Below are positions 31,655 through 38,079 of a stretch of DNA of 40,086 nt, piece after piece (the stretch's first letter is position 1; each line of letters begins with the position of its first letter). Location of the stretch: contig WBXH01000005.1 in NCBI GenBank assembly GCA_008933015.1, forward strand, positions 1 through 40,086, read 5' to 3'. A program made the position numbers and the translations under genes. The DNA comes from Verrucomicrobiota bacterium (GTDB taxonomy: Bacteria; Verrucomicrobiota; Verrucomicrobiia; Chthoniobacterales; UBA6821). Below the pieces are notes generated by a model. The model did no database searches. It was given only the letters and a program-made list of their open reading frames with translations, and was not told where the DNA came from.

Positions 31655-32215
31655 ATGAATCCCACGATGAAAGCTCTCCACATTGCACTCCTCTCCGTCT
31701 GTTTCTCAATAGTACTACCTACGAAAGCCCAAGCGGAAACAGCCAAGGAACTCCGTGTCCGCTCCGAGAAGGCTCTCCATCATCTCTACAGCAATAATCA
31801 CAAGGCCCGAGAAATTGGGGACAAGGCTGTGGCAATCCTAGTTTTCCCCACCGTTTATAAAGCGGGTTTCATGGTTGGTGCCCAGACTGGAAACGGTGTG
31901 CTTTTCAGGAATGGGAAGGCTGCCGGTTATTATAATACCACAGCTGCTTCCTATGGCTTGCAGGCGGGAATCCAGAAGTTCTCTTACGCACTTTTTTTCA
32001 TGGACGAGCACTCCCTGCACTACCTGAACAAGAGTGGCGGATTTGAAGTCGGTGGTGCTCCCAGTCTTGTGGTGGCGGATGAGGGATTCTCCTCATCGCT
32101 CTCCACCACGACGCTGCAGAAGGGAATCTACGCCTTTTTCTTCGGGCAAAAGGGGCTGATGGCCGGCCTTGGCCTCCAAGGAACCAAGATTTCCGGATAC
32201 ACTCCTAGCGAGTAG
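31655..32215 (+). CDS. SYLF/YSC84-domain lipid-binding-like protein, secreted
   Basis: 'AVAILVFPTVYKAGFMVGAQTGNGVLFRNGKAAGYYNTTAASYGLQAGIQKFSYALFFM...GLMAGLGLQGTKISGY' is a SYLF (DUF500) pattern. Confidence 0.85.
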   Translation: MNPTMKALHIALLSVCFSIVLPTKAQAETAKELRVRSEKALHHLYSNNHKAREIGDKAVAILVFPTVYKAGFMVGAQTGNGVLFRNGKAAGYYNTTAASYGLQAGIQKFSYALFFMDEHSLHYLNKSGGFEVGGAPSLVVADEGFSSSLSTTTLQKGIYAFFFGQKGLMAGLGLQGTKISGYTPSE

Positions 32216-32225
32216 GAACGAGTTT

Positions 32226-32636
32226 CTATAGTGGATCGGAGGCCACTCCGTATCCAAAGTTAGCGTCAGGACCCCACGCACTGTAGTCGGCGTTGTCCAT
32301 GTTTACCTGGGCATCCAGAAGTTTCTCATCCGCCTGCTGTTCCTGGAACTTAAGGGTTTTGTATTTCTTGAACTGAAGGGAACCACCAACCATGAGGGAG
32401 TTCTTTGCCGGGTCGGCGAAGACGTAGACCGGGCCGTTTTCACCTGAATGTATGGTTATTTTCCCCGCTTTCATGGCGTGGAGTGCCGCCAATTGGGTGG
32501 GAGTCGTTGCGGGTAGGGTCTTGAATCCTGCAGCGGCCAGTAAGTTGCGCTTTTCGGGTAGATTGGAGCAGGAGGCCAGGGCATTCAGCATGATCAGCAA
32601 TCCCAGCAGCGTTCCGATCTTTTGTGTTCTCATCAT
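32226..32636 (-). CDS. Small lipoprotein, member 1 of a tandem paralogous family
   Basis: Lipobox 'LNALASC'. Shares 'LLAAAGFKTLPATTPTQLAALHAMKAGKI...VYVFADPAKNSLMVGG' with its neighbours. ATGA overlap with the upstream paralog. Confidence 0.8.
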   Translation of the reverse strand: MMRTQKIGTLLGLLIMLNALASCSNLPEKRNLLAAAGFKTLPATTPTQLAALHAMKAGKITIHSGENGPVYVFADPAKNSLMVGGSLQFKKYKTLKFQEQQADEKLLDAQVNMDNADYSAWGPDANFGYGVASDPL

Positions 32637-33055
32637 GGGGTGGGGTTGTTGAAGTCGGGGCCCCAATAGGGGGCCTCCAGTCCTCCCCAGTCACTCCAAT
32701 CGCTTGCCGCATCAACGTTCAGCGATTTTGTGGCCATGGCATCGCGGGAGATGTTTTTTTTCAGACGCAGTTGCTGATAGGTCTGATACTCTGCCTGATT
32801 TCCGACAAGCAAGAGGTGATGCGTCGAGTCGGGAAACAGGAAGATGGTTTTTCCATTCTTTACGAGGGAAGTGATGTGCCCTTGGGGGAGTTTTATGAGC
32901 AGGGATGTCTGCCGTGGAGAGACTGGCTTTACGCTCCTGAATCCAGCTTGCATGAGTAACTTCTCCTTAGACTGAATCGATTGGCAGCCGATACCCAAGA
33001 GAAAGGCGAATGAACAAAATAAGCCGATTATTAAACGTCCCTTCACTGTTGTCAT
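32633..33055 (-). CDS. Small lipoprotein, member 2 of the tandem paralogous family (ORF track starts 33139)
   Basis: MTTVKGRLIIGLFCSFAFLLGIGC lipobox. 'LLMQAGFRSVKPVSPRQTSLLIKLPQGHI...GKTIFLFPDSTHHLLLVGNQAEYQTYQQL'. Confidence 0.8.
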   Translation of the reverse strand: MTTVKGRLIIGLFCSFAFLLGIGCQSIQSKEKLLMQAGFRSVKPVSPRQTSLLIKLPQGHITSLVKNGKTIFLFPDSTHHLLLVGNQAEYQTYQQLRLKKNISRDAMATKSLNVDAASDWSDWGGLEAPYWGPDFNNPTP

Positions 33056-33095
33056 GCTCGTTAAGGGGCTTTGGTAAATTTTACTACCTGAACTC

Positions 33096-33491
33096 TTAAT
33101 ACATTCCGGGGTAAAATCCTGGCCCCCAGAAGCCACCACCCCAACAATCCATGTAATCGGCGTTCAAGTCAGCAGCCTCAACCTTGTCTTCCTGAAGTTT
33201 GTACTGACGGACGTACTGCTGGTAGGTCGTGTATTGCTGCTGGTTGCCGATAAGAAGCGTTTTGTTTCTTGCATCAGCAAAGAGGAAGAATGTTTTCCCT
33301 TTTTTAGTGATCGGAATGATCTTCCCCTGCGGAAGAGTCTGAAGCTGGGAGATCTGGGTGGGCGACGAGGGGATGATCGTGCGGAAACCGGCGGCGCTCA
33401 TCAGCGTCTCCTTGTTCTGCCCAGAACTGCATCCGACGAAAGTCAAAACCGGCAGCAGGATAAGGGAGCGAAGAGATTTCATAGTCATCAT
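33096..33491 (-). CDS. Small lipoprotein, member 3 of the tandem paralogous family
   Basis: Lipobox 'LTFVGC'. 'LMSAAGFRTIIPSSPTQISQLQTLPQGKI...GKTFFLFADARNKTLLIGNQQQYTTYQQY'. Confidence 0.8.
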   Translation of the reverse strand: MMTMKSLRSLILLPVLTFVGCSSGQNKETLMSAAGFRTIIPSSPTQISQLQTLPQGKIIPITKKGKTFFLFADARNKTLLIGNQQQYTTYQQYVRQYKLQEDKVEAADLNADYMDCWGGGFWGPGFYPGMY

Positions 33492-33498
33492 CTAGCCC

Positions 33499-34362
33499 TT
33501 ACAGCCCCATCGATGCGAGGAAGAAAACCACGCCGGAAAATGCAAGACAGTAGTAACCGAACCATGCCCAATGTCCTTTCTCCAGCCAACTCGAGAGGAG
33601 TCTGAGCGCCAAGAGTCCGGCAAAGAAGGCGGCAACCATGCCGATCAGGCCCGGCCCAACCTGATCAAGAAGTTGATGGGGCGAGGCTGAAGCCTCGTGC
33701 GACTTCAAAAGACGCTTTAACTCAAGCGCCACCACTCCAGGAGTGATGACCACGGCCAGCGCAAAGCTAAACTCTTCCACCCGCAGCCGGGTGATTCCGA
33801 GGAGCATGCCGACCGAGATTGTAGCTCCCGAACGGGAGAGTCCCCTGAATGGCATGCAGATTCCCTGCGAGAGCCCTATCCAAATTGCCGAGGGAAGCCC
33901 TACCGATGGGATTGCGCCCCTACTGCCCAGAGATCCGGCCACAAGGATCAACACTCCGGCTGCAAGGAGAGCTGAGGCGATGACATGGAGATTTCCAAAG
34001 AGATGCTCCACCTCCGTTGCCTGATGAGATCCGTGCAGCAGTAACTTCTCGATGAGAGTCTTTAGGGCCAAGCCGATCACGATGGTTGCCGCCGTAGCCG
34101 CCCCGACATTCACAATCGTGCTCTTGAGGCTTGCGGCACTGGAAAAGAAGGTGCGGCTCCAAGCTTTCCAGAAATAGGTGATCACGGCGATCATTGTGCC
34201 GGTGTGAAGCATCACCAGAAGGAAGGTCATGGAGGGACTCGAGGGGTCGAATCCCATGAGTTTCTCGGCCACGATGACATGAGCCGAACTGGAGACGGGA
34301 AGGAGTTCTGCCGCTCCTTGGATCAGACCAAGCAGGAGGATTTGGAGAAGTGTAGGTTCCAT
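33499..34362 (-). CDS. uppP: Undecaprenyl-diphosphatase UppP/BacA
   Basis: 'LGLIQGAAELLPVSSSAHVIV', 'GLSQGICMPFRGLSRSGATISVGMLLGI'. Confidence 0.96.
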   Translation of the reverse strand: MEPTLLQILLLGLIQGAAELLPVSSSAHVIVAEKLMGFDPSSPSMTFLLVMLHTGTMIAVITYFWKAWSRTFFSSAASLKSTIVNVGAATAATIVIGLALKTLIEKLLLHGSHQATEVEHLFGNLHVIASALLAAGVLILVAGSLGSRGAIPSVGLPSAIWIGLSQGICMPFRGLSRSGATISVGMLLGITRLRVEEFSFALAVVITPGVVALELKRLLKSHEASASPHQLLDQVGPGLIGMVAAFFAGLLALRLLSSWLEKGHWAWFGYYCLAFSGVVFFLASMGL

Positions 34363-34480: not shown

Positions 34481-35185
34481 TCAGGATCGTCTGGAGAGCG
34501 TTGTAAAGACAAGAACCCAGAAGCTTTGTGCAACAATGAAGAAGGGAACGCCAAGCGCCGGAGGGAGCGAGTAGATGATACAGACCAGTGGAATCCAGAC
34601 CATCCAGTTAGCCATCAGTACGGGAAAGATGCTCAGAGCGTAAAAGTTTACGGGAGTATGACCGTGGAATCCCGTCAGGGTGAATCGGTGATCTCTCCAA
34701 AGGAAGACGCAGACAGCCTGAGGAATGGCAAGTAGCGGGCAGTAGAGGAAGGCATCGACAAGGACCTTCTTTCCGATGACAGCGACGGAGTCCGAGGGGC
34801 CGAAGAGAAAATACTGAAGGCGGTAGAAGAGATCTACCTGCATTCCGATGAGTCCCCAGAAAGGAATTCCAAAGAGGAGGCGGGAGAGCAGTCCCGGCGA
34901 TTCCCTCTTACCTTTCCGGGATGCTGGCAGGATCAACCGGATGAGTTCCGGAAAAATGGCGGAGGCAACCGAGGTGCCGACAAAGGAGAAGAGCAGACCC
35001 CAGTGTGAGCGGAGAATGGCGAGTTGTTCAAAGGCGTGTCGTGCCTTCGGAAAAAACAGATACGCGCCTCCCATCCCTGCCATAAGGGATTGGAGGAGGA
35101 GGCCCGGCAGAAGATTGGCACGGAGGGCAGCAAGGGATTTTTCCCAAGAGCGCCTGAGAATTGCGAAATGGTGTTGCCGGTTCAC
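34481..35185 (-). CDS. Multi-TM membrane protein with Mpv17/PMP22-like C-terminal features
   Basis: 'GKKVLVDAFLYCPLLAIP' and 'VNFYALSIFPVLMANWMVWIPLVCIIYSLPPALGVPFFIVAQSFWVLVFTTLSRR' recall the Mpv17 K-LVDQ..xxP and NWxxWPxxQ..N pattern. Confidence 0.5.
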   Translation of the reverse strand: MNRQHHFAILRRSWEKSLAALRANLLPGLLLQSLMAGMGGAYLFFPKARHAFEQLAILRSHWGLLFSFVGTSVASAIFPELIRLILPASRKGKRESPGLLSRLLFGIPFWGLIGMQVDLFYRLQYFLFGPSDSVAVIGKKVLVDAFLYCPLLAIPQAVCVFLWRDHRFTLTGFHGHTPVNFYALSIFPVLMANWMVWIPLVCIIYSLPPALGVPFFIVAQSFWVLVFTTLSRRS

Positions 35186-37659: not shown

Positions 37660-38079
37660 TTATGACTGAGGGAGTTCCCCGGGAGCCTCCACCTGGATCA
37701 CGGAAAGAGGGATCCTTAACCTGAGTTCCTCATCGAGTAGGATCTCGACATGGTAGGTGCCATATTTCTGAAACTGGACTCCTCCGAAGAAATGAACATT
37801 CGTGGCATGTGCATTCATATCGCCTAGACTGAAAGGCACTTCGGCTTGGGCGATGGCCTGATCCTCCTCTGGATCGTAGATCAGGCATTTTTGGATGAAA
37901 TCACCACTCCCGCCGCACCAGCGGGTCCAGAGACAGAGTTTGAAAAATCCTATCGGGAGACTTGGTGCCGGGATCGCACCAATCACCCCCACCAGTGTCT
38001 GTTGGCCGCTGATTTCGGCTCGCACATCCTCGCAGAGGATGGCTGCCTGTAGGTCTGGGAGGATGGAATCGGAAGTCAT
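37660..38079 (-). CDS. Hypothetical protein (DUF6941-like)
   Basis: 139 aa uninterrupted; 'ILCEDVRAEISGQQTLVGVIGAI...FGGVQFQKYGTYHVEILLDEEL'. Tentative family resemblance only. Confidence 0.6.
   Translation of the reverse strand: MTSDSILPDLQAAILCEDVRAEISGQQTLVGVIGAIPAPSLPIGFFKLCLWTRWCGGSGDFIQKCLIYDPEEDQAIAQAEVPFSLGDMNAHATNVHFFGGVQFQKYGTYHVEILLDEELRLRIPLSVIQVEAPGELPQS

Follow-up and report, generated by a model that had tools for sequence, protein, structure and literature searches.

The window analysed here, a stretch of 40,086 nucleotides, carries three tandem open reading frames on the minus strand directly behind uppP (Table 1), as the original prediction had it. Their products are related and share a common core: a search with member 2 retrieved the other two (E 1.8e-25 and 5.4e-11), and the alignment of the three proteins contains 26 invariant columns. 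No family copies beyond these three were found in the window's own genome, which is 84.7% complete. Members 2 and 1 do overlap as proposed (ATGA, 32636-32633), which is also the case in both relatives with a middle copy, while uppP and member 3 are 7 nt apart (33492-33498) instead of the 8 nt first given. The lipoproteins probably share a transcript with uppP. Scans of the region for promoter-like and terminator-like sites found no excess over shuffled sequence. The convergent SYLF-domain gene is a conserved flank of the lipoproteins within the genus, as judged from synteny; against NCBIfam, its product matched NF049970 below the cut-off. The predicted membrane protein of 234 aa encoded upstream of uppP is likewise conserved in the genus (59–89% identity), and its comparison with Pfam gave no match above the cut-off (Mpv17_PMP22, E 0.023).

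Table 1. Genes at the lipoprotein locus and related features of the window.
Feature	Position	Strand	Description
Family member 3 (line A, uppP-proximal)	33096..33491	-	131 aa small lipoprotein (predicted); with lipobox TFVGC, a core and a Trp/Gly tail; WGGGFWGPGFYPGMY
Family member 2 (line B, middle)	32633..33055	-	140 aa; lipobox of atypical form, LLGIGC
Family member 1 (line C, distal)	32226..32636	-	136 aa; lipobox ALASC; start overlaps member 2 stop (ATGA)
uppP/bacA, undecaprenyl-diphosphate phosphatase	33499..34362	-	287 aa; Pfam BacA PF02673, E 5.3e-52; upstream neighbour
Predicted membrane protein	34481..35185	-	234 aa; upstream of uppP
SYLF-domain protein (Ysc84-like)	31655..32215	+	Convergent; Pfam PF04366, E 2.8e-7; outside the lipoprotein family
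DUF6941 gene	37660..38079	-	Pfam E 1.6e-19; away from uppP

The description of the locus as triplicated is misleading. In a tree of 73 family members, the window copies fall in three separate lines, each of them an old orthologous line in the genus, and a recent triplication is thereby ruled out. The deeper branches are unsure, because the tree is based on few columns (135). Line A, the proximal line of member 3, comprises 13 sequences (support 84/92) and is represented at 13 of the 15 uppP loci in the genus. Line C, the distal line of member 1, forms a clade with 12 sequences, all from the genus (support 100/100). The middle line B (member 2) has orthologues in only two genomes, G005 and G009 (support 100/98), and groups with second-locus paralogues unlinked to uppP and with two further uppP-locus copies (support 98/94). 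Judging from this tree, the copies are old paralogues that were differentially gained or retained. All three lipoprotein genes are under purifying selection, with dN/dS values of about 0.08–0.2. Comparison of the window with its two nearest orthologues gave 0.085–0.10 for member 3 and 0.09–0.17 for member 1; with the two nearest relatives, it gave 0.145–0.17 for member 2 and 0.05–0.08 for uppP.

A Cys stands at the end of the signal peptide in all 72 members checked, and 59 of these, including all three window copies, match the strict PROSITE lipobox PS00013. We infer lipid attachment at this Cys, and the lipobox by itself makes a cell-envelope location likely. In members 3 and 1, the predicted lipoboxes fit well. 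The motif of the middle member (LLGIGC) fits PS00013 too, but those of its orthologues (LLNAGC and LTETGC) fail. Because of these degenerate orthologue lipoboxes, we are less sure that the middle line is lipidated. Asp at position +2 was found in none of the 72 members. By the enterobacterial Lol rule, its absence suggests that the mature lipoproteins probably go to the outer membrane.

Conservation was read from an alignment of 66 members. Only C21, G35, F36 and G82 are invariant, with L31, A34, D73, Y90 and W117 nearly so. A Trp/Gly-rich C-terminus was found in all three window copies and in nearly all other members: 69 of 71 members have Trp among their last 25 residues. Trp makes up 10.3% of the tail but 0.1% of the core, and Gly 16% and 6%, respectively. 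AlphaFold2 was run twice, on alignments of 66 and 69 sequences, and both runs returned an identical order of secondary-structure elements (alpha-beta-alpha-beta-beta-beta-alpha), with pLDDT values of mostly 80–94 in the core and low confidence in the C-terminal tail. The mature protein is thus predicted to consist of a small alpha-beta-alpha-beta3-alpha domain, as modelled, followed by a flexible tail whose Trp/Gly richness is read from the sequences. Foldseek comparison of the two models with the PDB gave nothing reaching E 0.001. The best matches (E 0.27–0.36, TM below 0.35) were rejected. Since the pTM was only 0.53–0.54 and no PDB fold match reached this threshold, the fold is left unplaced.

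The family had been called apparently undescribed. This holds for the curated databases, as no scanned member passed the curated cut-off of any Pfam or NCBIfam family; it does not hold for the sequence collections, where the family is already widespread in the form of 'hypothetical protein' entries. A sequence search of the PDB likewise gave no accepted match for the family. FlgP and another flagellar-type lipoprotein, retrieved in that search at E 0.3–0.5, were rejected, the alignment beginning in the signal peptide. Weak matches to the NCBIfam models of YgdI/YgdR, LptM, OsmB and Lpp (E 0.01–0.06), which are small lipoproteins like the family, stayed below every cut-off and are probably due to the signal peptide and lipobox, whereas the core and tail of the family are not common to them. 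Two distant members weakly matched, in their beta-strand region, the profile of Arm-DNA-bind_1 (PF09003), the arm-binding domain of lambda integrase (E 0.0011 and 0.0067). These matches are below the curated cut-off, the window proteins have none, and DNA binding is improbable for a secreted lipoprotein; we regard them as chance or as local beta-sheet resemblance.

The nearest named relatives are metagenome-assembled genomes of Spartobacteria/Chthoniobacterales. A match to the family is present in 93 of the 213 genomes of this order and in 19 of its 45 genera, and in 7 of 289 genomes in an even draw across the phylum. Homologues in Proteobacteria were sought in a plasmid collection alone, to which our view of the proteobacterial spread is therefore confined. 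There, tblastn found homologues on chromids and plasmids of Agrobacterium, Rhizobium, Polymorphobacter, Acetobacter, Komagataeibacter, Aristophania and Paraburkholderia; these alpha- and betaproteobacterial sequences are annotated as 'hypothetical protein' or have no listed gene. The family profile matched four of the plasmid loci over its full length, including the W..WGP tail (hmmsearch, E 1e-29 to 1e-31), and a comparison by hhalign agreed (probability 99.4, E 5.9e-21). WP_211387382.1 of Agrobacterium tumefaciens and BEI71988.1 of Paraburkholderia largidicola are homologous over the full length, and share with the family the signal peptide with its Cys, a KExxLxAAGF-type motif, YADP..LYVG, YxxYQ, the long helix and the W..WGP tail. 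Because of such full-length homologues in Proteobacteria, the family is no verrucomicrobial oddity. By homology, the window proteins are members of a widespread and uncurated family of small AGF/WGP lipoproteins of about 125–145 aa. A family that spans Verrucomicrobiota and Proteobacteria and has no Pfam or NCBIfam model merits a curated entry, and if an envelope role were found for it, many 'hypothetical proteins' would be annotated at once.

In contrast to the window members, the four proteobacterial members that were read have a C-x-C motif before LYVG/LYIG, in the ADP..CxCLYVG loop. This is a candidate metal or disulfide site. Distant family members at five loci lie beside or near genes for arylsulfatases, HAD phosphatases, DUF308/HdeD-like and bestrophin-like proteins, which is a raw recurrence.

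How might these proteins function? Our preferred reading, to which we assign a probability of about one half, is that they are non-enzymatic lipoproteins that bind a component of the envelope, and that the window copies are ancient paralogues of a widespread family. A binding rather than a catalytic role is suggested because almost no polar residue is invariant. The signal peptide of the precursor would end at the Cys, where the lipid would be added, and by the enterobacterial Lol rule the lipoprotein would then travel to the outer membrane. There, the predicted domain and the tail would hold a partner protein or an envelope polymer in an accessory role. In the genus, one to three paralogues would share the uppP transcript, as a derived arrangement. 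Outside the genus, no consistent partner gene was found; the neighbourhoods are mixed.

An alternative explanation, which we consider unlikely, is that the proteins are general envelope-stress lipoproteins that guard the envelope and are carried in islands together with secreted and periplasmic proteins. The proposed set consists of arylsulfatases, a sulfatase-modifying enzyme, an HAD phosphatase, and DUF308/HdeD-like, bestrophin-like and LolA-like DUF2092 proteins. Sulfatase was indeed the commonest neighbour family in two samples made up mostly of neighbour genes, with 5 of 110 and 3 of 58 proteins, but these are raw counts, and sulfatases are abundant in the phylum Verrucomicrobiota anyway. 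The same samples contained two FGE proteins, and the flanking genes of distant members include HAD, Zn-peptidase, DUF308 and bestrophin-like genes. DUF2092 also lies by a second family locus in five same-genus genomes. However, the neighbours differ between families.

The original prediction favoured a role tied to undecaprenyl phosphate, in which the lipoproteins, co-transcribed with uppP, would assist UppP or the undecaprenyl phosphate cycle by aiding polymer export or recycling of the lipid carrier. The linkage itself is tight within the genus. The junction of uppP and a lipoprotein gene was present in all 15 informative same-genus genomes (14 others plus the window), with a gap of 6–19 nt and one to three family copies directly behind uppP, even though uppP identity has dropped to about 70%; one further genome, whose contig breaks at uppP, was outside the informative set. 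Yet the flanks are conserved in the genus as well, with rplM, rpsI and mem234 on one side and usually the SYLF-domain gene, then frr and pyrH, on the other. Because the block rplM-rpsI-uppP-lipoproteins-frr-pyrH keeps its gene order as a whole within the genus, adjacency to uppP is not independent evidence of a functional link, and shared gene order can explain the constancy of the junction.

Outside the genus, at the level of order and class, the picture differs. We found uppP in 40 of 43 genomes. In the 38 other-genus genomes with both genes, none of the listed family positions adjoined uppP, although some genomes hold copies beyond these positions and contig breaks could hide a rare adjacency. 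The two genes were on different contigs or, in one genome (G304), 2.6 Mb apart. In the remaining two of the 40 genomes (G019 and G398), the surroundings of uppP contained no family member. The family was missing from 11 uppP neighbourhoods of other genera, and the proteobacterial members, on their chromids and plasmids, lie beside other genes. In the sister genus, the order is uppP-DUF6941-rplM-rpsI, and a lipoprotein gene is missing. The pairing of uppP with a lipoprotein gene is therefore most likely a derived state of one genus, since it was not seen in the other genera examined and the sister genus has DUF6941 in its place. Most likely, on this comparison of gene orders, the arrangement is lineage-specific and not the defining context of the family.

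Across genomes, then, the comparison of uppP neighbourhoods showed family genes largely scattered without linkage to uppP, the outcome that the original prediction had itself named as speaking against it. In addition, most same-genus genomes have a second, uppP-free family locus with one or two copies. A role in assisting UppP is weakened by these loci, by the positions in other genera and by DUF6941 behind the uppP of the sister genus, and we regard it as quite improbable. Our literature search found no paper linking lipoproteins to uppP in the phylum. The uppP neighbourhood says little about lipoprotein function, and the locus may serve as a worked case of a tempting functional link, the tight coupling to uppP, that turns out to be a genus-level arrangement.

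The neighbours of the second locus include an RNA-methylase-like gene, DUF2092, a gene for a Gly-rich small protein and an FMN-reductase-like gene; DUF2092 was assigned by Pfam, the others were read from the sequence. In five same-genus genomes, this locus combines DUF2092, a small lipoprotein-like gene rich in Gly, Ser and Tyr, and two family members. DUF2092 has been related to LolA (PMC4520260). The DUF2092 protein might therefore be a dedicated carrier of the LolA type, with the lipoproteins as its cargo or partners. The co-occurrence in five genomes is in line with this idea, but no DUF2092 gene adjoins the uppP-linked copies and none was seen beside most other members, which leaves it hardly probable. 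We find it very improbable that a cross-phylum family with a fold absent from solved structures, its Trp/Gly tail binding a specific envelope component, was recruited in one genus, in the form of diverged paralogues, to the transcription unit of uppP for undecaprenyl phosphate-dependent envelope assembly.

The adjacency of uppP and DUF6941 recurs in several other genera of the order (nine loci, including the sister genus). This linkage spans more genera than that of uppP with the lipoproteins.
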